Positions 3,020-32,150 are shown, counted from the stretch's first letter. The stretch is 32,150 nucleotides of DNA from Verrucomicrobiota bacterium (GCA_003176045.1 PSRM01000258.1:1-32150); one strand, 5' to 3'. Numbers and translations are program-made. Notes: a model not told the origin generated them from the sequence alone.

Positions 3020-3029
3020 CTTCCTGTTC

Positions 3030-3097
3030 ATGTAACCATGTAACCATGTAACCATTTAACTTATTTAACCCATTTAACTCATTTAACTCATTTAACC
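3030..3097 (+). repeat. ATGTAACC and CATTTAACT tandem repeats
   Basis: Three units of an 8-mer ATGTAACC (3030-3053) run into five units of a 9-mer ATTTAACNC (3053-3097), ending 23 bases before the symporter start. Related TTTAAC tracts lie before 6191, 6824 and 11214 and at 19196-19242. Confidence 0.9.
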
Positions 3098-6167: not shown

Positions 6168-6200
6168 GTTAAATGAGTTAAATGAGTTAAATGGTTAAAT
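6168..6200. repeat. TTAAATGAG tandem repeat
   Basis: Three and a half units of the TTTAAC-family repeat in reverse orientation, directly after the ALDH-like stop. The first possible start codon of the next gene (ATG 6191) is part of the repeat. Confidence 0.85.
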
Positions 6201-6690: not shown

Positions 6691-6812
6691 AATTTAACCA
6701 TTTAACCCTTTTAACCTATTTAACTCTGCTTTTTGATTGCCACTCTCACCTTCGACGTCCGTTGACCATTTAACAATTTAACTCATTTAACTCATTTAAC
6801 TCTTTTAACCCT
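6691..6812. repeat. TTTAAC tandem repeats upstream of mdh
   Basis: Two TTTAAC tracts (6691-6726 and 6767-6812) separated by 40 bases of unique sequence. The second consists of ATTTAACTC units and ends 12 bases before the mdh start codon. No Shine-Dalgarno is present between them. Confidence 0.88.
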
Positions 6813-19195: not shown

Positions 19196-19242
19196 CATTT
19201 AACATAATTAACCTATTTAACTCATTTAACTTTTTTAACTCA
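19196..19242. repeat. TTTAAC tandem repeat
   Basis: Five TTTAAC-like units between the ThuA gene start and the end of queD. Here both flanking genes are on the opposite strand to the TTTAAC reading direction. Confidence 0.8.
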
Positions 19243-19287
19243 TTCACCACGTTGCTAGCGATTTTCCCCTGGCTCGGCAATTGTGCA

Positions 19288-22053: not shown

Positions 22054-25000
22054 TCATTCGTGATTGCTGAGAAGCCGCTTGAACCTTTTTGAAACAAAAG
22101 CTCGAGTTTGTTCACCATCTTTCACCAGGATCATTGCGCCAGTTCCCGGCAACTTCTCAACAAGCGAAAGCGCGCGCTGAGGTCCAAGAACGCACAGGGT
22201 ATTGTCCAGGCCGTCGGTCATGGTGGCGTTCGGGGCGATCACAGTAGCCTGGATGCGATTGGTCAGCCCAAGTCCTGTCTTCGGAGCAATGATGTGGGAA
22301 TAACGCACTCCGCCGATTTCGATGAATTGCTCGGTGTCGCCGGAGGTTGAGATGCCGCAGTTGTGCAGTAAAATCGAACGCACAGCCTTGTCGTCATGCC
22401 TCCCGATGCCGGTGATGTCAACCTTCCATCCCTTTTGCTCAGGTGGCGGGTCGCCGATGGCGATGTCGCCACTGGCCGCCACCAGAGCGCGTCGAATGTC
22501 TCGGCTGTTGAGCACTTTCAAAGCTTGGTCTGCGGCATAACCCTTGCCGATGCCGCCGAGGTCCAGCCGCATGTTCGGGGCAAGCAGAGTCACAGAGCGG
22601 TTTTTCGCATTCAGCCGCAGCTTCTCGTAACCGACTGCTTTGGCTGCAGTCGCAAGCTCGTCTGATGTTGGAAGCACTTTTCGTTTCCTGCCGAACCGCC
22701 ATAAACGCACGTATGGCCCGACAGTCACATCGAACGCGCCCCCGGAAAGGCGGGCGTACTTTTGCGCCTGTTCCAGAGCGTCGAACAAGTCCTCACCCAC
22801 CTGAACCGGCTTCCCCCAGGGTTGATCGCACAAGCGCATCAGCTCGCTGTCGGCACGGTAGTCGCTCATCACATCCTCAAGCGCTGCCACCCGCTGAAAC
22901 GCTGCTTCCGCGGCGGCCTCGGCCTGTGCCTGATTAGTCGTGTAAAGTGTGATTGTGAACAGCGTGCCCATGTGGCCGCTGGTAAATTGGAACCGATGGA
23001 GACGGACCGGCTCTGGGCTCGTGTCAGGTCCAATGTTCCTTAAATCAATCGGCCGAAATCCGATTTGGAAGGCCGGTGATCCAGGTCGCAATTGGAAATC
23101 ATTCTCCTTTTCTGCGGCAAACAGCGGATCCGCGAGGATAGAATTGCGGTCATGCGCTCGCGCCTGCCATTGTTTCCACGTTCCTGCGCCTAAGGGAAAT
23201 GCGCCTGTGTTTGTGCCGGAGCGGGTATCGAAATACAGATTGTGATCCATCTCGAACCTGTCCCCGGACCAATCACCGGCGAGCAGGACGCCGGAATCAA
23301 AGTACACAATATTCGTTTGAAAGCTGAGGCTTCTGTGCGGCTCTGGTCGTGTGTGTTGAAGCTGGTGGTCTCGCGCAAAGGCGAAAATGTTATTCCAGAC
23401 CATATTGGTTTCTCCATAGTGCTGATGAAATCCGCCATGAGTGGTGCGGTACACGATATTATTCTTCGCGAGGATGCCGCTGCTGCCTTCATCGAAATAA
23501 ATCCCCCAGCCACCGTATCGTACACCGGCGATATCGCGCCAAAGATTATGGTCAATGGTGGTTCCGGTCTGCCGCCCCAAAGTGTAGATCCCGCCCATGT
23601 CACTTAGGATCGGTCCATCACCGTCGGACTTCACTCCGATGTGATGCACCTCGTTGTAAGCGATGAGGTTATTGGTTGCCAGCGACGGGCCGTACCCCCA
23701 GGTCCAGCCGACTGAGATACCGGTGTAGAAAAAATCGTGAATCAAATTGTGAACGATGCGATTGGAAGGAGTCTGGCCCAGCCAGATGCCGATCGCGCTT
23801 TGGAACATCTTGCCGCCGTCGGAAATCGAGCAGTCCCGAATCTCGTTTTCGCGCGCTTGTTCGTCGGCCATCTCGCGGATGCGTGTTTCTCCGATTTTGA
23901 TGCCACCGGCTCCGAGATCGGACAACTCGCAACCAAGAATCTGGTCTCGGAAGCAACCGCACCCCAGATCAAGTCCATAGTTGCCCAAGTGAACAAAGTG
24001 ACACTCTTCAAACACGCAATTGCGCGCGCCTTTACCCCAAACCGCACCGGACACACCAATCGCGGCCTGCGCGAAGCCACCGATTTCCGGCTGCGGTTCA
24101 GGAGATATTTCAGGCTTTTCGTTTCCTGTCAAAGGGGTCTCCGGAAGGCTCCACTCGGTATGTGAGAAGGTTAGGCCGCTGAAGCGAAGCCGTTCGATGA
24201 AATTTCCAGACTCGGGCCTACCTTCAAGTCGCAGCACCTGGTCTAAAACCGGCGCGATCGCCTCGATATTGGTGATGCTCTCGCCCGGACGCGGCATGTA
24301 ATAGAGTGACCCTGCGCGATCCAGGCACCATTCGCCCGGCTCATCCAGAAAATCCAAAGCGCCTTCCGCATAGTAGAGGTCGCCTGGCATTAACTCGAAT
24401 ACAGATCGCTTGCTGAAACTGATGATGCGCTCTTTGTCAACCACGCTGACCACCGGCAGGCGCGACTCCACCCAACGCGTCATGGCAACAACGTCTGCAT
24501 TTGTGACCGAAGGCCATGCAAGAAAGTCGCCCTCGCGAAACCGAATTCTCGTGTGGCCCTGGGTCCAATCCGGCGTCTTGTCCGGCAATTCGGCGATGGT
24601 CAGATAGCCGTGATTTGGATGCCGAGCGCGCGTGGCCCGCTTGCCATTGACCCATAGTTCCCGGAAGAACCACTTTCCTGATCGGACTTCCGGAAGCTGG
24701 GCTGTCCAAAATCTTTTGCCTTCAACATGGGCCTCCTTCCATCCCTCGATTCGCCGGCCTCCGCTCAAGACCGGCTGCTCTTGCTCATACGCACTAATTT
24801 TAAGGCCGGAATCTTCCGGTCCAAGCACCAGCGGTTCGGGGAGAAAATATGTGCCATCGCGGATTTGTATTTCTACGGGGCTTGACAGCACCCCGCTGCT
24901 TTTCCGCCTCAACTCTCGAGTCGTCTTGACGGCACGCTCCACTGTGGCCAAAGGTCCGTCGGTTTTTCTGCGATTCGGCGTCACCAAATGGCCAGACCAG

Positions 25001-25194
25001 CCATCGTTTCCATTGGTGGCGACGAAAAACACAGCTCGTGCAGGATTGGCAGCTCGAAGGTTATCTGCCACCCCGGCAGTTATCAGTGCGCCAACCAGGG
25101 ACATTGATGAAACCCCAAGAGGCCATCGAAGCTCGCGGAGCGTTTGGAGTGTCCCGATAGCAATCGGGACCGCTTTCGTTTTTGACAGTACCAT
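22054..25194 (-). CDS. Fusion of a right-handed beta-helix carbohydrate-type domain with an ApbE FMN transferase domain
   Basis: About 1046 residues from ATG 25194; ATG 25104 (MSLVGALITAGVADNLRA) is a rival start with a shorter signal sequence. The open frame upstream to 25347 translates hairpin repeats. N-terminal part (about 30-725): FFVATNGNDGWSGHL, then many coils such as NCVFEECHFVHLGNYGLDLG, NEIRDCSISDGG and NRIVHNLIHDFFYTGISVGWTWGYGP, the pattern of parallel beta-helix glycosidases or lyases (GH141/GH120-like, low certainty). C-terminal part (about 735-1046) is ApbE: GHMGTLFTITLY, GGAFDVTVGPYVRLWRFGR, MRLDLGGIGKGYAADQAL, GISTSGDTEQFIEIGGVRYSHII and TMTDGLDNTLCVLG, which keeps the Mg-ligand Asp and Thr. 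ApbE attaches FMN to Thr or Ser of target proteins outside the cytoplasm. No frameshift lies between the parts. Confidence 0.88.
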   Translation of the reverse strand: MVLSKTKAVPIAIGTLQTLRELRWPLGVSSMSLVGALITAGVADNLRAANPARAVFFVATNGNDGWSGHLVTPNRRKTDGPLATVERAVKTTRELRRKSSGVLSSPVEIQIRDGTYFLPEPLVLGPEDSGLKISAYEQEQPVLSGGRRIEGWKEAHVEGKRFWTAQLPEVRSGKWFFRELWVNGKRATRARHPNHGYLTIAELPDKTPDWTQGHTRIRFREGDFLAWPSVTNADVVAMTRWVESRLPVVSVVDKERIISFSKRSVFELMPGDLYYAEGALDFLDEPGEWCLDRAGSLYYMPRPGESITNIEAIAPVLDQVLRLEGRPESGNFIERLRFSGLTFSHTEWSLPETPLTGNEKPEISPEPQPEIGGFAQAAIGVSGAVWGKGARNCVFEECHFVHLGNYGLDLGCGCFRDQILGCELSDLGAGGIKIGETRIREMADEQARENEIRDCSISDGGKMFQSAIGIWLGQTPSNRIVHNLIHDFFYTGISVGWTWGYGPSLATNNLIAYNEVHHIGVKSDGDGPILSDMGGIYTLGRQTGTTIDHNLWRDIAGVRYGGWGIYFDEGSSGILAKNNIVYRTTHGGFHQHYGETNMVWNNIFAFARDHQLQHTRPEPHRSLSFQTNIVYFDSGVLLAGDWSGDRFEMDHNLYFDTRSGTNTGAFPLGAGTWKQWQARAHDRNSILADPLFAAEKENDFQLRPGSPAFQIGFRPIDLRNIGPDTSPEPVRLHRFQFTSGHMGTLFTITLYTTNQAQAEAAAEAAFQRVAALEDVMSDYRADSELMRLCDQPWGKPVQVGEDLFDALEQAQKYARLSGGAFDVTVGPYVRLWRFGRKRKVLPTSDELATAAKAVGYEKLRLNAKNRSVTLLAPNMRLDLGGIGKGYAADQALKVLNSRDIRRALVAASGDIAIGDPPPEQKGWKVDITGIGRHDDKAVRSILLHNCGISTSGDTEQFIEIGGVRYSHIIAPKTGLGLTNRIQATVIAPNATMTDGLDNTLCVLGPQRALSLVEKLPGTGAMILVKDGEQTRAFVSKRFKRLLSNHE

Positions 25195-25332
25195 CAGGCG
25201 CGAGACCCCGTTTATGAAAAGCGCGGGAATGCCGCGCACTCTCCCGCTGAGCGGGACTGCGCGAGACTCCACGCGTTTGGGATCTTGGCGAAGCTTTTGG
25301 AGTGCGCCCCTGATGCATCGGGGGCGCTTTGG
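25143..25332. repeat. Three TTTGGAGTG-hairpin-CTTT elements in the beta-helix/ApbE leader
   Basis: Plus-strand copies lie at 25143-25178 (stem TCCCGAT/ATCGGGA) and 25296-25332 (stem CGCCCC/GGGGCG around TGATGCATC); a minus-strand copy lies at 25216-25245. The last shares over 20 bases with the copy at 4739-4760. They cover the region before and just inside the 5' end of the beta-helix/ApbE gene and generate its long spurious N-terminal frame. Confidence 0.88.
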
Positions 25333-25333
25333 C

Positions 25334-26623
25334 TCAATCCCCAACATTGTTCGAAATGCTAATGGTGGACTTACTCGGACTTGTGATTCGCACTTTTCCT
25401 TTTATCACATTATCTGTGATCACCGCCCTTCTCACGCTTTCCCCTAACTCGATCTGCGGGTGGTTCTCGCGAAATTCGCACCCGCGCACCAACACCGTTC
25501 CGCTTTCGACCTGCAACGCGTGCCGCCCTTCCCGGTTGCGGTCCCATTGGACGAACGTGCAATCGCCGAAGCCGACCGTTCCCGAACCCGCGAGCTTCGC
25601 GATCTGGTTGCACGGCCCCCAAAAGGCGCAGTTCGAAAAACGCACGCTGCCGGAGTTGCTCGATTCGATTCGAACCATCGTTGGATCCGGTCCATGGAAT
25701 GACACAAACTCCCCATTCGAGATCAATAATCCCATCGGCGCGCAATTCTCCACCACCATCGCGCTGAAGCAATCATCGGCGCCGATTCCCAGGAAATTGC
25801 CGTTGCACAAACCCGCGCGCGTTTGGATGAACTTGTAGCCGATGCCGTATCCAAAACAAAACGTATTGTACACGTATTGCCAATCGCTGCGGCCAAAGAT
25901 GAACGCCTCTCCGTGTTCCTGCTGCCACTTGAACAGTTTGGGCTTCATGCTCCACCAGGGGTTAAAATGGACGTTTTCGATCCGGCCAATGTCGTAAATA
26001 TCATCCACAAAAATGCCGCGCCGCAGTGGCTGGCCCGAAATGTCCCTGATCAAGTGGCGATCATTTTTCCGCGCATCAATGCCGTTATACGAGTTCAATA
26101 GTTCGACCGTCAGCACGGCCGGATTGTGGCCGCGCATCGCGATGGTCCACGGATATTCTTTGGGCTCCTCTGCTGTGTCTTGCTCGGGGTAATAGATCAC
26201 CACGCCTTTGAGCGTGCTATCGCTCTGCAATGAGATAAAGGCCGGCCCATCCTCTTTGCCTCGGCTTTCAGTGGCCAGAAAGGTGGTTCCATTGTCCGTG
26301 GGCTTCGCGGCGCCCGGGTTTCTGATGCCGGGATGTGAGGGTACTGATTCCCAAACGCCTTTGAGCGTTACGCCATTCGGCACGAAGAGATGGCCGGCAA
26401 AAAAGTAGTTTCCTCTCGGCGCATAAACCACGCCACCGCCCTCCCGGCCAGCCGTGTCCAGCGCCTTTTGGAACGCCCCGGTATCATCGCTCTTGCCGTC
26501 GCCTTTGACGCCGAAATCGAGTACGGAGTAGGTGTCAGAATTCGTCGCTGCCGGGAGCCGGGCTGCGCACAGGAGCAAGAACAGGACTGAACTATACGGA
26601 GGTAAGCGGCGTATAAAAGACAT
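25334..26623 (-). CDS. Secreted pectate-lyase-superfamily (beta-helix) protein
   Basis: A 429-residue protein from ATG 26623, which gives a signal peptide (MSFIRRLPPYSSVLFLLLCAARLPA, cleavage near LPA|AT). The frame upstream to 26818 translates noncoding repeats. The mature start YSVLDFGVKGDGKSDDTGAFQKALDTAGREGGGVVYAPRGNYFFAGHLFVPNGVTLKG is the classic start of the pectate-lyase-3 / GH28-like superfamily. Beta-helix coils follow (PAVLTVELLNSYNGIDA, GRIENVHFNPWW, VRFSNCAFWGP, GFGDCTFVQWD, VRGCEFREN). No typical catalytic set was identified. It lies beside another beta-helix gene, suggesting a shared polysaccharide role. Confidence 0.85.
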   Translation of the reverse strand: MSFIRRLPPYSSVLFLLLCAARLPAATNSDTYSVLDFGVKGDGKSDDTGAFQKALDTAGREGGGVVYAPRGNYFFAGHLFVPNGVTLKGVWESVPSHPGIRNPGAAKPTDNGTTFLATESRGKEDGPAFISLQSDSTLKGVVIYYPEQDTAEEPKEYPWTIAMRGHNPAVLTVELLNSYNGIDARKNDRHLIRDISGQPLRRGIFVDDIYDIGRIENVHFNPWWSMKPKLFKWQQEHGEAFIFGRSDWQYVYNTFCFGYGIGYKFIQTRAGLCNGNFLGIGADDCFSAMVVENCAPMGLLISNGEFVSFHGPDPTMVRIESSNSGSVRFSNCAFWGPCNQIAKLAGSGTVGFGDCTFVQWDRNREGRHALQVESGTVLVRGCEFRENHPQIELGESVRRAVITDNVIKGKVRITSPSKSTISISNNVGD

Positions 26624-26635
26624 GGTTGTGGCGGG

Positions 26636-26807
26636 GAAGGGTTCAGGGTTCAGGTTTCGGAATAGCAAATCGCAAATGGCCGAGAGTAGGCGCGGAGCTT
26701 TAATGCAAAGGCGCAAGGCTGACAGGAAAATTGGGGAAAGGAAAATGTTTCTGTCCAAAAATCTTTCTGTCAGTTTCTCCTCGGCTCTTTGCGTCTTTGC
26801 GTTAAAT
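26636..26807. repeat. GGTTCAG repeat and nested inverted repeats between folA and the pectate-lyase-like gene
   Basis: GGTTCAG heptamers lie at 26640-26655. Outer arms TTTAATGCAAAGGCGCAAGG (26699-26718) and CTCTTTGCGTCTTTGCGTTAAA (26786-26807) enclose an inner pair of GACAGGAAAAT/CTTTCTGTCAG type. The folA TAA stop (complement of 26802-26804) is part of the right outer arm. Confidence 0.8.
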
Positions 26808-27281
26808 CCGGGCCGCATAATGCGTCACCTTAAAGTCGGAGTGCTCCGCGATTTCCTCAACCACCTCGAAAGCATCTTCAAATGCCGGAAAAAAGGCATC
26901 GCCTTCCACCACTCGCTTGACGAGGGTGAGATACAAATCGGAACAAAGCGGCAGCGCTTGCTCATAGACCTGCGCGCCGCCGCAGATGAAGATCTGCCGG
27001 CCGGCAAATGCTCCGTTTGCTAAATCAATGTGCTCAAGCCCGGAGATCGTCTGCACTCCGGAAGGTGGCTGGGGAGAGCGAGACAATACTAACGTCGTGC
27101 GTCCAGGCAGCGGCTTTCCGATGGATTCAAATGTTTTTCGACCCATCACCAGCACATGCCCCATGGTCAGTTTCTTGAACCATTTGAAGTCCTCCGGCAA
27201 ATGCCACGGAATTCTGTTTCCCGCCCCGATCACCCGGTTCAGTGACATGGCCGCAACGGCTTTGAAGGGCCTCCCTTGCAT
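26802..27281 (-). CDS. folA: Dihydrofolate reductase
   Basis: A 159-residue enzyme reducing dihydrofolate to tetrahydrofolate with NADPH. FKAVAAMSLNRVIGAGNRIPWHLPEDFKWFKKLT contains the Met20-type loop and the catalytic acidic residue in LPEDF. GHVLVMGRKTFESIGKPLPGRTTLVLSR is the NADPH site, and IFICGGAQVYEQALPL the conserved GG pair. It follows thyA, whose reaction generates dihydrofolate; the pairing is common. The 209-base gap to thyA is repeat DNA. The start ATG 27281 directly follows TGATTTA heptamers and has no Shine-Dalgarno; the stop is in another repeat. Confidence 0.95.
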   Translation of the reverse strand: MQGRPFKAVAAMSLNRVIGAGNRIPWHLPEDFKWFKKLTMGHVLVMGRKTFESIGKPLPGRTTLVLSRSPQPPSGVQTISGLEHIDLANGAFAGRQIFICGGAQVYEQALPLCSDLYLTLVKRVVEGDAFFPAFEDAFEVVEEIAEHSDFKVTHYAARI

Positions 27282-27490: not shown

Positions 27491-28285
27491 TCAGACGGCT
27501 ATCGGCGCTTTGATTGCCGCGTGAGGCTCGTAGCCGGTTAGCGCAAAATCCTCGTAATCGAACTGATGAATGTCCTTCACTTCCGGATTTAATTTCATCC
27601 GCGGCAAAGGACGAGGTTCGCGCGTGAGCTGCAACCGTGCCTGCTCCTCGTGATTGCGATAGAGATGAAGATCCCCGAACGTGTGAATGAATTCGCCCGG
27701 ATTCAAATCGCATACCTGCGCAACCATCATCGTTAACAAGGCGTACGATGCGATGTTGAAAGGGACACCCAGGAATACGTCGGCACTCCTCTGGTAAAGC
27801 TGGCAACTCAACTCACCGTCCTGAACGTAAAATTGGAACAGAGCGTGGCATGGCGGCAAGGCCATCTGATCAAGCTCACCCGGGTTCCAGGCCGAGACGA
27901 TGAGGCGTCGGCTGGAGGGATTGCTACGGATTTGGGAAATAACCTCGTCAATTTGATTGATCGAGCGTCCCTCTGGTGCACGCCAGTCGCACCATTGCGC
28001 GCCGTAAATGCGGCCCAGGCTCCCTTCCGCATCGGCCCATTCATCCCAAATCGTTACGCCATGCTCGTTGAGGTAGCGCACGTTTGTGTCGCCCCTTAAG
28101 AACCAAAGCAATTCATAAATAATGGATTTGAGATGGAGCTTCTTGGTCGTGAGCAACGGGAAGCCATCTGCCAGCCGGAACCGCGTCTGAGCGCCGAAAA
28201 CCGAATACACGCCTGTGCCGGTGCGGTCCGGCCTTGCTTTGCCGTCTTCGAGGACCGTTCGGAGAAGTTGAAGGTATTGGGTCAT
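27491..28285 (-). CDS. thyA: Thymidylate synthase
   Basis: A 264-residue enzyme, exactly the length of the Escherichia coli protein, methylating dUMP to dTMP with methylene-tetrahydrofolate. [17 protein letters not shown] is the phosphate-binding arginine loop, [12 protein letters not shown] the folate region, [15 protein letters not shown] carries the catalytic Cys146, [25 protein letters not shown] the dUMP site, and [14 protein letters not shown] the late motif. The C-terminal PIAV is intact. ATG 28285 has no Shine-Dalgarno. Upstream is repeat DNA; downstream is folA on the same strand. Confidence 0.97.
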
Positions 28286-28296
28286 TCGTTAGCTTG

Positions 28297-28455
28297 TGTT
28301 ACGTGTCAGGTATCAAGTGTCAGGTTCTATGTGCCGGGACATCTTTCTTAATCCTAATCTTTCTCCTGGTCTTAATCCAAGCAGGGAAAGGTGAAACGTA
28401 AAACGTGAAACGCAAACGCGATGCTGGATGCTGGATACTAGATACTGGATGCCGG
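28297..28455. repeat. Mixed tandem repeats upstream of thyA
   Basis: GTGTCAGGTATCA words lie at 28298-28325, a degenerate AATCTT block at 28345-28378, GTGAAAC-type heptamers at 28388-28412, and GGATGCT/GGATACT heptamers at 28419-28450. The last run into the 3' end of the glycosidase/glycosyltransferase gene and help encode its final residues. Confidence 0.85.
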
Positions 28456-31400
28456 AAGCTGTTTTCCGCGACCCTCAATGACTTCGGATTTTGGAAGTTG
28501 GACCGTGGACTGTGGAGTCTGGACTTCGGGCTTCGGACTTCGGGTTTCGGGCTTGGGAGCTTGAACTTCCTCTGCGCGCACCTTGACCAATCCCGTCTGT
28601 TTGGCCAACTCATCCAGAAATACGGCGAGAACCGATTGTAAAGCCCTGCCCTGATGATGCAAAAACCAGGCAAAGAGAGGTAGTGATATTAATAACAACC
28701 ATGGCCATGCGTGGTGGGCGGAAAGCAGGCCCAGCAGAAGCAATTCCGTTGCGCACGCCGTTCCGAAAGAGACTTTCGCTCGCAGCGACCAACCCGGCTT
28801 AAGTCGGCAGTGCAGAAATTTTCCTTTGCCGGGGTGTTCTTCCACGACCGTGGTGATTTGGACCTTGCTCCAGCGTGCATCAAAAATCTCCACGTCATAA
28901 TCGCTCCAGCTATCGGATCGGTTCGGCCATCCTTTTTCATCCAACCGTCGCAGCATCTCTGTTACAAAAGCCAGTCGGTCAAAGGAGGGCAGGGCTGCCG
29001 CCTCCGTATGGGCAGGACTCCCAGGACTTCCGCGGACAAGGCTGTCCGCGCTCCTTTGGGTCTGCCACCAATACGCCAATTCTCTAAGCGAGCCTGGTGC
29101 CGATCTAAGTGCCATGGAATCCAAATTCTGCTGCGGCGCAACTACGGCCCGCGGCAACAGCAGCCTGCTCTTGTAACGCGCATATCCTCGAACAATCGGC
29201 TGCAAGAAAAACAGCAGCGCGATCAATGCCCGCGACCAGCGCCGCGTCTGCCGCCTGGGCAAAGCGGCCTGGGCGCCCGCCGCGGCGCAGACGCTGGCGG
29301 GCAACAGAGTGCCGAAAATGGCCAGCGGCAAAAGATTCTGGAAGATGGCGGCAAGAACCCAAAGCGGCAGAGTGACAAAAAGATGGTACTCGATCGCGGT
29401 GCAAAGCATCAGCGAGGGCGCAGGTTCCGCCGCATAAAGAGATTGGAACCCGGCGCTGGCGAACAGACCTCGGTAAATCACTGAAGGCCGAAGCAGAAGT
29501 CCAAATTTTGCCGTAGTGTAAATGCGGCCTTTCCACATGCTGCCTCCGAGAGAATTGAAATACTCGGGGTGTTTACGCACCAATAACGCTTCCGCCTCCC
29601 CGTAGCCCTCTTGTTGGCGCAGATACTCGGCTACGGTTGAACGGCGGTAATGCCAGACGAAGCCGGCCGGACTGAACCCAATCTTCCATCCGGCCTGCTG
29701 CAAGCGCCAACAGATGTCCACGTCGTCGCCCGCGCGCTGAAAAGCCGGATCGAACCCTCCAATCTCGACCAGCGCCCATTTGTAAAAAGCCATATTGCAT
29801 CCTGGAATATGCTCTGCCTGCCGGTCTGTAAGCATCACATGCGCAGGCCCGCCAGGCGAAGCCATCACCGCCGCGGCGACCGGCGAATCTTCTGGCGGCA
29901 ACAGGTTGGGCCCGCCGATGCCCACAAATTCACCGCCCAACAAATCGCTCACCAGGTAATAGAGCCAATCCTCATCCGCCCGGCAGTCCGAGTCGGCGAA
30001 CGCCACAATTTCGCCCGTGGCAGCGCCAATGCCGGTATTGCGCGCCGCTGATAGCCCGAGATTCCTCGAGTGCCTAAAGTAACGGACCTTTGGCCGTTGA
30101 TAGGCGATTTGAGGCGAAGTATCCGTCGAGCCATCATCCACCAGGATAATCTCATAATCCGGATAATTCAGGCGCTCCAGCGATTCCAGGCACGCCGCCA
30201 GTGTCCGTTCGCCATTGTAATTGGCCACGATGACCGAGACCTTAGGAAGGCGACCATTGACCACTGTTTTATGACCACTGACCACTGACCACTGACCACT
30301 GACCTCCGCCCTCTGCTCCTCGACCGTGGACTGTGGACTGTGGACTTTGGGCGCTTTTTTCTGACTACTGACCACGGACCACTGACCACTGACCTTGGAT
30401 TCACCTTCGGCGTCCTGGACTTTGGACTTTGGACTTTGGTCTTTGGACTTAATTTCAAAATACGGCGCCGCCTCGAACTTTTCCCGCACCGCCCAAAATG
30501 ATTCCTTCGCTTTCCGGGCTCGCGTGACCAACCCCATCTGCCAATCCAAGACTTCGGCCCCCCCACGCCACCACTCATCCGTGTAGCTGAATACCACCGC
30601 GCCCGCCAGGCCGGCTCGAAACGCCTGCTCAATTTGCCACCCAAGCATCTCGCATTTCTTTTCCTCTCCTTCCCGCAACGAATCTATCCCGACCTCGCCT
30701 AACAGCAGCGGCTTGCCCGGCGCTTGCATTTGCAGACGCGCCAGGTAGTTACTGAAAGCCGTTTTCTGGTGCAGATAAACATTGAAGCAGACGAAATCCA
30801 CGCCCTGCGGCCGCAGGAACTCCGTGGTTGGAAAATTTGTGAAGGTGCAGAGACATTCCGGATCGGCCTGCTTCGCCTCCACTACCAGCTCATCAATGAA
30901 ATCCGCCACTCGCCTCGCCCCACTCCACCGCACGATATCCGCTGGGAGCTCATTGGCTACACTGTACGCGAATACCGCAGGATGCCGTCCACACGTGACC
31001 ACTGCGTTGCGGACCGCCTCCCGCGCGCCTGCCCGGCCCGTGGCTGAATCCAAAAAACAGAGATGCTCATTCCACGGGATGCCGACGAACACCTTCAAAT
31101 CTTGCTCAGCCGCCAAATCCAGAAACCATTTCTCCGGCACCTGATAAACCCTGAGGACATTTGCCCCCAACTCCTTTATTTGCGCAAAATCTTTGGCTGT
31201 CTGGTCCGGTGAAGCAAACCCCGCCTGCATGTCCGCAGTCCGTAGTCCGTAGTCCGTAGTCTGTGGTCTGTAGTCCGTAGTCTGTGGTCTGTGGTCCGTG
31301 GTCTGTAGTCTGTGGTCCTCCGGCTTTGGACCTTGGACTTTGGACTTTGGACTTTCCTCCGGCTTTGGACTTTGGACCTTGGACTTTGGACTCCCCCCGT

Positions 31401-31533
31401 GGTCGGTGGTCTGTGGTGCGTGGTCTGGCCGAAAGGGCCCATACGCCACGCCTTTGACGTAGAATTTCTTCTCGCCCAAACGAAAAAATTTGCCGTCCAC
31501 GCTCACGCGCAGACGGGGGGATGCCACTGCCAT
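28438..31533 (-). CDS. Fusion: glycosidase-like TIM barrel plus family 2 glycosyltransferase with membrane helices
   Basis: 1031 residues from ATG 31533; the frame continues to 31710 with repeat-like sequence. N-terminal glycosidase-like domain: FFRLGEKKFYVKGVAYGPFRP, DFAQIKELGANVLRVYQVPEKW, Glu195 in VFAYSVANELPADI and Glu280 in GKPLLLGEVGIDS, the acid/base and nucleophile positions of GH2/GH5-type barrels. Residue 431 starts a GT2 domain: PKVSVIVANYNGERTLAACL, ILVDDGSTD, ARNTGIGAATGEIVAFADSDC, GCNMAFYKWAL, AGDDVDICWRLQQAGW. Hydrophobic segments follow (LFVTLPLWVLAAIF, ALIALLFFLQPIV, LLLLGLLSAHHAWPWLLLISLPLFAWFL), placing it in the membrane, likely in polysaccharide assembly. Repeat-encoded inserts occupy residues 37-102 and 362-430 and the C-terminal 44 residues. 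Confidence 0.88.
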   Translation of the reverse strand: MAVASPRLRVSVDGKFFRLGEKKFYVKGVAYGPFRPDHAPQTTDHGGSPKSKVQSPKPEESPKSKVQGPKPEDHRLQTTDHRPQTTDYRPQTTDYGLRTADMQAGFASPDQTAKDFAQIKELGANVLRVYQVPEKWFLDLAAEQDLKVFVGIPWNEHLCFLDSATGRAGAREAVRNAVVTCGRHPAVFAYSVANELPADIVRWSGARRVADFIDELVVEAKQADPECLCTFTNFPTTEFLRPQGVDFVCFNVYLHQKTAFSNYLARLQMQAPGKPLLLGEVGIDSLREGEEKKCEMLGWQIEQAFRAGLAGAVVFSYTDEWWRGGAEVLDWQMGLVTRARKAKESFWAVREKFEAAPYFEIKSKDQSPKSKVQDAEGESKVSGQWSVVSSQKKAPKVHSPQSTVEEQRAEVSGQWSVVSGHKTVVNGRLPKVSVIVANYNGERTLAACLESLERLNYPDYEIILVDDGSTDTSPQIAYQRPKVRYFRHSRNLGLSAARNTGIGAATGEIVAFADSDCRADEDWLYYLVSDLLGGEFVGIGGPNLLPPEDSPVAAAVMASPGGPAHVMLTDRQAEHIPGCNMAFYKWALVEIGGFDPAFQRAGDDVDICWRLQQAGWKIGFSPAGFVWHYRRSTVAEYLRQQEGYGEAEALLVRKHPEYFNSLGGSMWKGRIYTTAKFGLLLRPSVIYRGLFASAGFQSLYAAEPAPSLMLCTAIEYHLFVTLPLWVLAAIFQNLLPLAIFGTLLPASVCAAAGAQAALPRRQTRRWSRALIALLFFLQPIVRGYARYKSRLLLPRAVVAPQQNLDSMALRSAPGSLRELAYWWQTQRSADSLVRGSPGSPAHTEAAALPSFDRLAFVTEMLRRLDEKGWPNRSDSWSDYDVEIFDARWSKVQITTVVEEHPGKGKFLHCRLKPGWSLRAKVSFGTACATELLLLGLLSAHHAWPWLLLISLPLFAWFLHHQGRALQSVLAVFLDELAKQTGLVKVRAEEVQAPKPETRSPKPEVQTPQSTVQLPKSEVIEGRGKQLPASSI
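29012..29060 (-). repeat. GGAGCGCGG-family hairpin inside the fusion gene
   Basis: The hairpin CGCGGAC-AAGGCT-GTCCGCG at 29031-29050, with GGAGCGCGG read on the minus strand, matches the border of the element at 13185-13327. It is translated in frame (SADSLVRGSPGSPAHTE), after the membrane part of the glycosyltransferase. Confidence 0.75.
30244..30450 (-). repeat. Heptamer tandem repeat encoding the linker between the glycosidase and GT2 domains
   Basis: GACCACT, GGACTGT and GGACTTT heptamers (plus-strand reading) are translated on the minus strand as SGQWSVVS, QSPKSKVQ and HSPQSTV segments. The repeat words match noncoding tracts at 2634-2739. Domain sequence stops at KFEAAPYFEI and resumes at LPKVSVIVANYNG. 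Confidence 0.88.
31228..31425 (-). repeat. Heptamer tandem repeat inserted in the glycosidase-like domain
   Basis: About a dozen GTCYGTR heptamers (31228-31315) and GGACTTT heptamers (31320-31395) lie between the first strand of the barrel (VKGVAYGPF) and DFAQIKELG. They translate into seven-residue repeats such as TTDHRPQ, TTDYRPQ and PKSKVQ. Confidence 0.9.
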
Positions 31534-32150
31534 AGAAATTGGACGTGAAGCGCGGTGGGTATCATCAGTCGAAGATGAGCAAAAGCGTGAATTAGTCTCA
31601 ATTAGTGTCAATAGCGAGGGTTCAGGGTTCAGGATTCGGGCCGTGGTCACAAGTCCAGAACATTGGGAGAGGAATTTCGAGTCCGACAAAGTGCAGGACG
31701 AAGTTCGCACGAATTCAAGATGGATTTTCGGAAGAGTTGCAACCGCGGCGTCCTGATTTCTGCTGCTGCGGTATGGTGGGAGGGGGGCGCATGAATTTGA
31801 GCTTGGGGCGAGTGCATGCGTCTGCTTTAGGCTGAGTTAGACTGAGTTAGTCTGTAGTTACAATGCGGGGAATCGTGCTTTGCTGAACCGGAGGGGTAGG
31901 GCAAAGCTTGAGGCAAAGTGAAAGACATAGTGGAAGACGAAGTTTTAGGGGGAGGGGGTCAAGCGTGGGAAGCGCCTATGGGTGCCAATAGCCGCCAATG
32001 AGTGGAGTTGAAGTTTCGTAAAAGTGGAGGGGCTGAGGCGAGTATTGGAATTGGAATTCAAGGAGTCAAGGTTCTCTGCATGGCAAGGGTAAGGGGCCCC
32101 GCCTTCGCTCCGCTAAAGGAGCGGCGGGCGACGTGAAAGCCGAAACGGCC
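31534..32150. other. 617-base region with no convincing gene
   Basis: No reading frame here looks coding on either strand. It holds GGTTCAG heptamers (31616-31636), a CTGAGTTAGA 10-mer repeat (31828-31858), a G/A-rich stretch (about 31890-32060), and a CGCTCC-GCTAAA-GGAGCG hairpin near 32106-32123. It is the upstream region of the glycosidase/glycosyltransferase gene; no promoter could be assigned with confidence. Confidence 0.6.

Follow-up and report, generated by a model that had tools for sequence, protein, structure and literature searches.

The window analysed here, a stretch of 32,150 nucleotides from a Verrucomicrobiota bacterium (GCA_003176045.1, PSRM01000258.1:1-32150), carries on its minus strand a gene for a membrane protein in which a glycoside hydrolase (GH) barrel is followed by a family 2 glycosyltransferase (GT2) domain. 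Judged from its sequence, the gene most likely encodes a functional enzyme with tolerated, translated repeat DNA. We give a probability of about 0.8 to the reading that this is a conserved, probably active GH-GT2 membrane enzyme carrying the dispersed repeats of its genome, inserted in frame. One normally expects repeats whose unit length is not divisible by three to be eliminated from genes. In a blind sample of this genome, about one open reading frame (ORF) in eighteen contains an internal tract of seven-base repeats (heptamers), and RecG, a UvrA2-like protein, RecO, and DHODH are among the products. The main surprise is this genome-wide load of in-frame heptamers rather than the glycan enzyme. 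It provides a natural experiment on how far a proteome tolerates disordered insertions, which positions of a fold accept them, and how tandem repeats become protein sequence.

The GH-GT2 protein has been aligned with 97 distinct orthologues, mostly 840–930 aa long and nearly all from Verrucomicrobia. Three internal inserts, at residues ~98–164, 422–486, and 885–908 (in P0001 numbering, which begins 59 residues upstream of the ATG in Table 1), have next to no counterpart in the alignment and are present in 0 of the 97 orthologues, which rules out an origin ancestral to the family. This agrees with the original prediction that the inserts are specific to this genome, and the case that would speak against it, the same inserts as non-repeat sequence, has not been found in any of the 97. 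The second refuting case named at the outset, an assembly error across the tracts, has not been encountered either, although long reads were unavailable. The C-terminal tail is variable in all orthologues. Heptamer tracts lie where they were predicted, in inserts 1 and 2 and the tail, with lag-7 identities of 0.72, 0.66, and 0.58, respectively, compared to 0.25–0.26 in the flanking domains, and Tandem Repeats Finder (TRF) also detects the arrays. Insert 3, which holds a palindromic repeat, had been overlooked. The tracts in this gene are composite and imperfect, the longest perfect run being 4.7 copies of TGACCAC, and the stop codon itself lies inside a further heptamer tract. With no common factor between 7 and 3, a heptamer lacking stops leaves every reading frame open and, as anticipated, reads as a seven-residue repeat.

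The insert peptides are hydrophilic, with grand average of hydropathy (GRAVY) values of −1.73 and −0.98, and insert 1 is proline-rich. In line with the earlier claim, insert 1 falls within a loop of the barrel, and insert 2 lies where the two domains meet. AlphaFold predicts one shared fold with and without the inserts, with predicted local distance difference test (pLDDT) scores of 81.5 for the window protein and 85.8 for an orthologue. The score falls below 50 at model residues 39–102 and 370–421 and in most of the tail past 997, and it is also below 50 at residues 842–845, inside insert 3. The models suggest that inserts 1 and 2 and the tail are disorder added to an unchanged fold.

The fusion itself, proposed from the outset as a membrane protein with both catalytic glutamates of the barrel, is confirmed by the Pfam GT2 match, by profile and fold matches, and by conserved motifs. 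The minus-strand frame is unbroken from 28438 to 31710, and the chosen ATG matches the orthologue starts in the alignment. Pfam GT2 (PF00535) matches residues 492–595 with E = 2.7e-32 and 112.5 bits against a cut-off of 23.3, and the DDG, DxD (D573/D575), and GDD base motifs are all conserved across the orthologues. No Pfam family matches the barrel above its cut-off. A profile built from 33 orthologous barrels finds LaGH157 (9fz9) as its best match (E = 6.8e-18), followed by GH2 enzymes (E = 1.4e-15). Fold comparison of an orthologue model gives Z scores of 31.9 to GH157 and 30.9 to GH2, and the two families are not separable by fold alone. Glu254, the predicted acid/base, is invariant among the orthologues and Asn253 nearly so, while the predicted nucleophile, Glu339, aligns with the glutamate altered in the LaGH157 entry 9g4n (E224A). 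Compared with one orthologue (L009), the gene differs at 0.26, 0.18, and 0.54 of codon positions 1, 2, and 3, as under purifying selection, and among positions conserved in at least 97% of orthologues the window protein differs at one only. Because of this codon pattern and the retention of nearly all conserved positions, the enzyme looks functional.

Three weakly hydrophobic segments have been identified, all C-terminal to the GT2 domain. The hydrophobicity scan shows no signal peptide and no hydrophobic segment ahead of the barrel or between the barrel and GT2. Since the predicted membrane segments follow only after GT2, both catalytic domains are probably cytoplasmic-facing. A tentative model, to which we give somewhat less than even odds, is that GT2 lengthens a glycan at the cytoplasmic face, that a beta-linked chain is cleaved or transferred by the barrel on that same side, and that the inserts are disordered, non-catalytic loops. 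The glycan extended by GT2 may be membrane-linked or diffusible, and it could be the one on which the barrel acts, as originally proposed. A somewhat less favoured but still serious possibility is that the barrel is non-hydrolytic, acting as a transglycosylase or as a module that binds glycan and holds the acceptor in place for GT2. If both domains share one side of the membrane, a hydrolase there would destroy what GT2 makes. The GH17-GT2 proteins described so far are believed to carry out cyclisation or transfer and not degradation (PMC10237404), and the barrel shows a weak match to the GH72 glucanosyltransferases, with GAS2 among the profile matches. Against this, the barrel retains every residue that a clan-A retaining hydrolase should have, although sequence cannot distinguish hydrolysis from transfer. 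The family represents a widespread, uncharacterised verrucomicrobial enzyme worth assaying.

The extent of the heptamer tracts has been estimated from pattern counts and from separate pieces of the source genome totalling 1.38 Mb. The available assembly is a fragmented draft of 372 contigs with 86% completeness, 7.7 Mb was used for scaling, and genes were called with a home-made simple dicodon model rather than a published gene finder. Three TTTGGAC units with at most 2 mismatches occur at 540 places, whereas the reversed control gives 13. Tracts of period 7 have a density of ~180 per Mb. A scan of 0.97 Mb of other contigs yields 207 of them, and no period outside the multiples of 7 exceeds 40. 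The blind set, consisting of 40 contig starts (0.57 Mb), contains 102 tracts, 27 of them inside ORFs and affecting 20 of 355 ORFs, which extrapolates to ~370 ORF-internal tracts in 7.7 Mb by our own gene calls. Overall, between roughly one quarter and one third of the tracts are ORF-internal, and tens of different words are used. Given an overall coding fraction of 0.85, the tracts of the blind sample are under-represented in coding DNA yet far from absent.

A Pfam survey of tract-bearing proteins, in the blind set and elsewhere, identifies RecG, a UvrA2-like protein, RecO, a MiaB-like protein, UbiE, DHODH, Lnt, a 2-oxoacid dehydrogenase acyltransferase, GH77, an aminotransferase III, an exosortase, and others. 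This survey rules out the heptamers as a hallmark of glycan genes. The sole RecG found in the genome has inserts at ~236–246, 423–458, and 583–618 which are absent or nearly absent in relatives; the last of these is itself a dispersed repeat with matches at several other contigs. Because the same repeats are found inside hundreds of unrelated genes, core DNA-repair genes included, the heptamers are unrelated to sugars specifically, and the inserts are not, as was originally implied, a property of this enzyme. For such genomes, spurious "linkers" call for caution in annotation, structure prediction, and assembly. In the UvrA2-like protein (L167:4708-8574), heptamer tracts occur at five separate places; among its orthologues in other genomes, some likewise exceed the others in length. 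A second dispersed repeat (peptide ERGHSCPQQ...DKNVR) is also found in frame inside genes, including as the RecG insert (L128).

Tracts inside genes differ from those between genes in ways that look like traces of selection. Stops in the sense direction occur in 1 of 109 classifiable tracts inside genes and in 58 of 136 between co-directional genes (Fisher p = 5e-17). The word AAAGTCC is stop-free both ways, reading KVQSPKS in sense and GLWTLDF in the other direction, and its sense:other ratio is 22:0 inside genes and 6:11 beside genes (p = 7e-6). In the genome G012, AAAGTCC-type tracts inside genes likewise run in sense. Three points limit the case for selection on the encoded peptide. The contrast in sense stops is in part a consequence of how an ORF is defined, a clear orientation bias is seen for AAAGTCC only, and over all words the excess of the hydrophilic reading inside genes relative to tracts beside them is not significant (p = 0.09). 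Orientation bias as a general proof of peptide-level selection is thereby weakened.

Among 55 genomes searched for three TTTGGAC units with at most 1 mismatch, they are abundant only in the source genome (380 places) and in G012 (42). G009, from the same genus as G012, has no TTTGGAC tracts and contains 116 period-7 tracts per Mb with other words, which rules out TTTGGAC as a marker of the whole phenomenon. Samples of G003, G006, and G008 show no period-7 tracts. In the one fully aligned gene, five AAAGTCC-like units in G012 correspond to CCGAAGG-like units in G009 with an equal total length. Clean empty sites between G012 and G009 have been sought, and no insertion junction is readable because the sole tract in the fully aligned gene is present in both genomes with differing words. 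The comparison leads us to infer that tracts can stay at a site while their words change together, and slippage or local copying with homogenisation best explains this. The sites in the GH-GT2 gene were probably filled after the lineage split from G009, G010, and G012, since the orthologues of these genomes lack the inserts; loss in all of them appears less likely. Within one genus, the comparisons of L227 with L245 and of L243 with L253 show a tract in the same gene at an unchanged place and length with a different word. The relative G024 has 100 places with CAGGTTT units, the pattern that served as the reversed control, and therefore other lineages carry other heptamer words.

The tracts may arise and lengthen via replication slippage or a similar process. 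Their persistence within genes would require an overall length compatible with the frame and a peptide sufficiently hydrophilic to form a loop outside the fold, and later the words within a tract would drift together while the tract stays in place. In its most general form, which we regard as possible rather than probable, this proposal holds that in a Limisphaerales clade an ongoing process writes and rewrites heptamer tracts, leading to steady in-frame, hydrophilic, disordered insertions in hundreds of proteins, DNA-repair proteins included, with concerted turnover of the word in place.

It is improbable that the inserts have acquired a role of their own, such as that of a binding region or of flexible spacers for domain movement. 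Their location in a loop and at a junction and their hydrophilic, in insert 1 proline-rich, composition would suit such a role. However, no orthologue has anything at these positions, not even those from the sister genus, which has heptamers of its own, and equivalent inserts are found in unrelated proteins. Very unlikely also is an adaptive role of the tracts as a phase-variation switch or as expandable linkers, in which a unit change shifts the frame and a three-unit change tunes the length. Insert 2 does sit between the two domains, altering a tract by one or two units would run into a stop within 3–40 codons, and one array is perfect over 33 bp. Most tracts are nevertheless imperfect and composite, insert 3 is not a tandem repeat, the same tracts occur in housekeeping genes, where switching makes little sense, and the one clean within-genus comparison shows a changed word at the same tract length. 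The term "expandable" in the original prediction is not sustained, as no copy-number variation has been seen. Misassembly or a decaying gene, suggested by the fragmented draft, the general difficulty of assembling repeats, and the position of the gene near a contig end, is likewise very unlikely in view of a frame that survives three inserts with conserved residues intact, read-through tracts in 80 sampled ORFs, the same tract type inside genes of two other draft genomes of the sister genus, and a codon-position pattern that fits selection. The preferred reading is that of a working enzyme with tolerated repeat DNA.

Table 1. Features of the GH-GT2 gene and its neighbours (window positions; residues in P0001 numbering).
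Feature	Position	Strand	Details or basis
GH-GT2 fusion CDS	28438..31533	(-)	1031 aa; ATG 31531-31533, stop TAG 28438-28440
Clan-A (beta/alpha)8 glycosidase barrel	30451..31509	(-)	Split by insert 1; profile and fold matches
Insert 1, composite heptamer tract (AAAGTCC, ACAGACC/ACGGACT type words)	31219..31419	(-)	~64-67 residues, first barrel loop
N253-E254, predicted barrel acid/base	30949..30954	(-)	Aligns with LaGH157 'NE'
E339, predicted barrel nucleophile	30694..30696	(-)	Invariant in orthologues
Insert 2, composite heptamer tracts (AAAGTCC, AGTGGTC, ACAGTCC words)	30253..30447	(-)	65 residues, barrel-GT2 junction
GT2 glycosyltransferase domain	29611..30252	(-)	D525-D526-G527, D573-x-D575, GDD 661-663
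Predicted membrane helices after GT2	29302..29397	(-)	Hydrophobicity and structure model
Insert 3, 72 nt, with palindromic repeat GGAGCGCGGACAGCCTTGTCCGCG	28987..29058	(-)	24 residues; orthologue alignment
Palindromic repeat core GCGCGGACAGCCTTGTCCGCG, inside insert 3	29031..29051	(-)	Hairpin-forming
C-terminal hydrophobic segment	28687..28743	(-)	Hydrophobicity
C-terminal tail, heptamer-derived	28441..28572	(-)	44 residues, disordered; tandem-repeat search, lag-7 identity, model
thyA (thymidylate synthase)	27491..28285	(-)	Pfam; neighbour of the GH-GT2 gene
Dihydrofolate reductase	26802..27281	(-)	Pfam; second neighbour

Dispersed heptamer repeats are already known, and the scale seen here inside core genes looks new. 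Short tandemly repeated repetitive (STRR)-type heptanucleotides have been described in Calothrix, in Nostoc (GGGGA(C/T)T), and in Xanthomonas (GGGAATC), where non-coding DNA holds more of them than expected and coding regions fewer (PMC4692102). The present tracts resemble these in being tandem heptamers of few units and variable words, dispersed in high number over the genome, and differ in that many are ORF-internal and in frame, core genes included. Rickettsia palindromic elements (RPEs) are dispersed and found in frame within unrelated genes as extra peptides (PMC10969869). In this they are similar to the repeats described here. RPEs are, however, ~150 bp long with a conserved peptide, whereas neither a set length nor a fixed element characterises the heptamer tracts and the palindrome core in our genome is about 25 bp, so that neither qualifies as an RPE. 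The literature search has returned no account of heptamer tracts within many core genes, nor of heptamers in Verrucomicrobia, with subscription literature outside its scope.

The palindrome of insert 3 is a dispersed repeat in its own right. The core GCGCGGACAGCCTTGTCCGCG has ~316 genome copies at up to 3 mismatches, compared to 2 for the reversed control, and occurs singly and as inverted pairs. Inside ORFs, 24 of 56 sampled copies are found. In its short length, copy number, occurrence as singles and inverted pairs, and the presence of Y1_Tnp genes in the genome, it is similar to the repetitive extragenic palindromic (REP) sequences and their paired forms (REPINs). It differs in its frequent location inside ORFs and in its GGAG head, the tags being GTAG/CGTC in PMC3733652. 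Of five Y1_Tnp matches in the genome, one, a gene resembling a REP-associated tyrosine transposase (RAYT; L278, G000:C240), has a palindrome copy ~350 bp away and is a possible mobiliser, although chance could produce such proximity.

As an enzyme, the GH-GT2 fusion is, on the evidence of its sequence, an ordinary conserved verrucomicrobial protein of known general design. Strong matches (E below 1e-80) are found by protein search in 48 of 57 relative genomes, and 80 loci with the fusion have been collected from public genomes, nearly all from Verrucomicrobia. Near the GH-GT2 orthologue, thyA is present in 25 and DHFR (dihydrofolate reductase) in 12 of the 80 loci; since both also neighbour the GH-GT2 gene in the window, this gene is the positional orthologue. 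The closest described design is that of the GH17-GT2 "Orphan" and NdvB cyclic beta-glucan synthases of pseudomonads, in which the GH17 barrel is periplasmic and lies behind a membrane region (PMC10237404). In both cases a single membrane protein combines a GT2 domain with a clan-A barrel at its N-terminal end. By comparison, the window protein has no GH17 match in Pfam, and its GH157/GH2-like barrel stands directly before an MftF-like GT2, probably in the cytoplasm. The barrel is most similar in sequence and fold to the GH157 endo-beta-1,3-glucanases (LaGH157, 9fz9/9g4n), with aligned catalytic glutamates, but the identity is below 20%, GH2 beta-glucuronidases fit the fold almost equally, and the solved GH157 enzyme is not fused to GT2. 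The best curated model for the GT2 domain is the mycofactocin glycosyltransferase MftF (TIGR03965), although its 182 bits are well below the family cut-off of 280 and no mycofactocin context has been seen. The literature search has found no paper describing a GH-GT2 fusion of this kind.

Further repeats are found elsewhere in the window. A dense GACCACA/GACTACT heptamer array at 2633–2738 lies directly downstream of the ORF at 943–2586. Nine-base repeats of the TCATTTAAC type, in both orientations and mostly intergenic, are located at 3028–3096, 6168–6200, 6692–6724, 6767–6809, and 19197–19244; a period of nine would preserve the reading frame. Finally, a 1097-aa ORF at 22054–25347 (-) combines a GH141/beta-helix region with a full ApbE domain, an unusual pairing that may be a fusion or a frame artefact.

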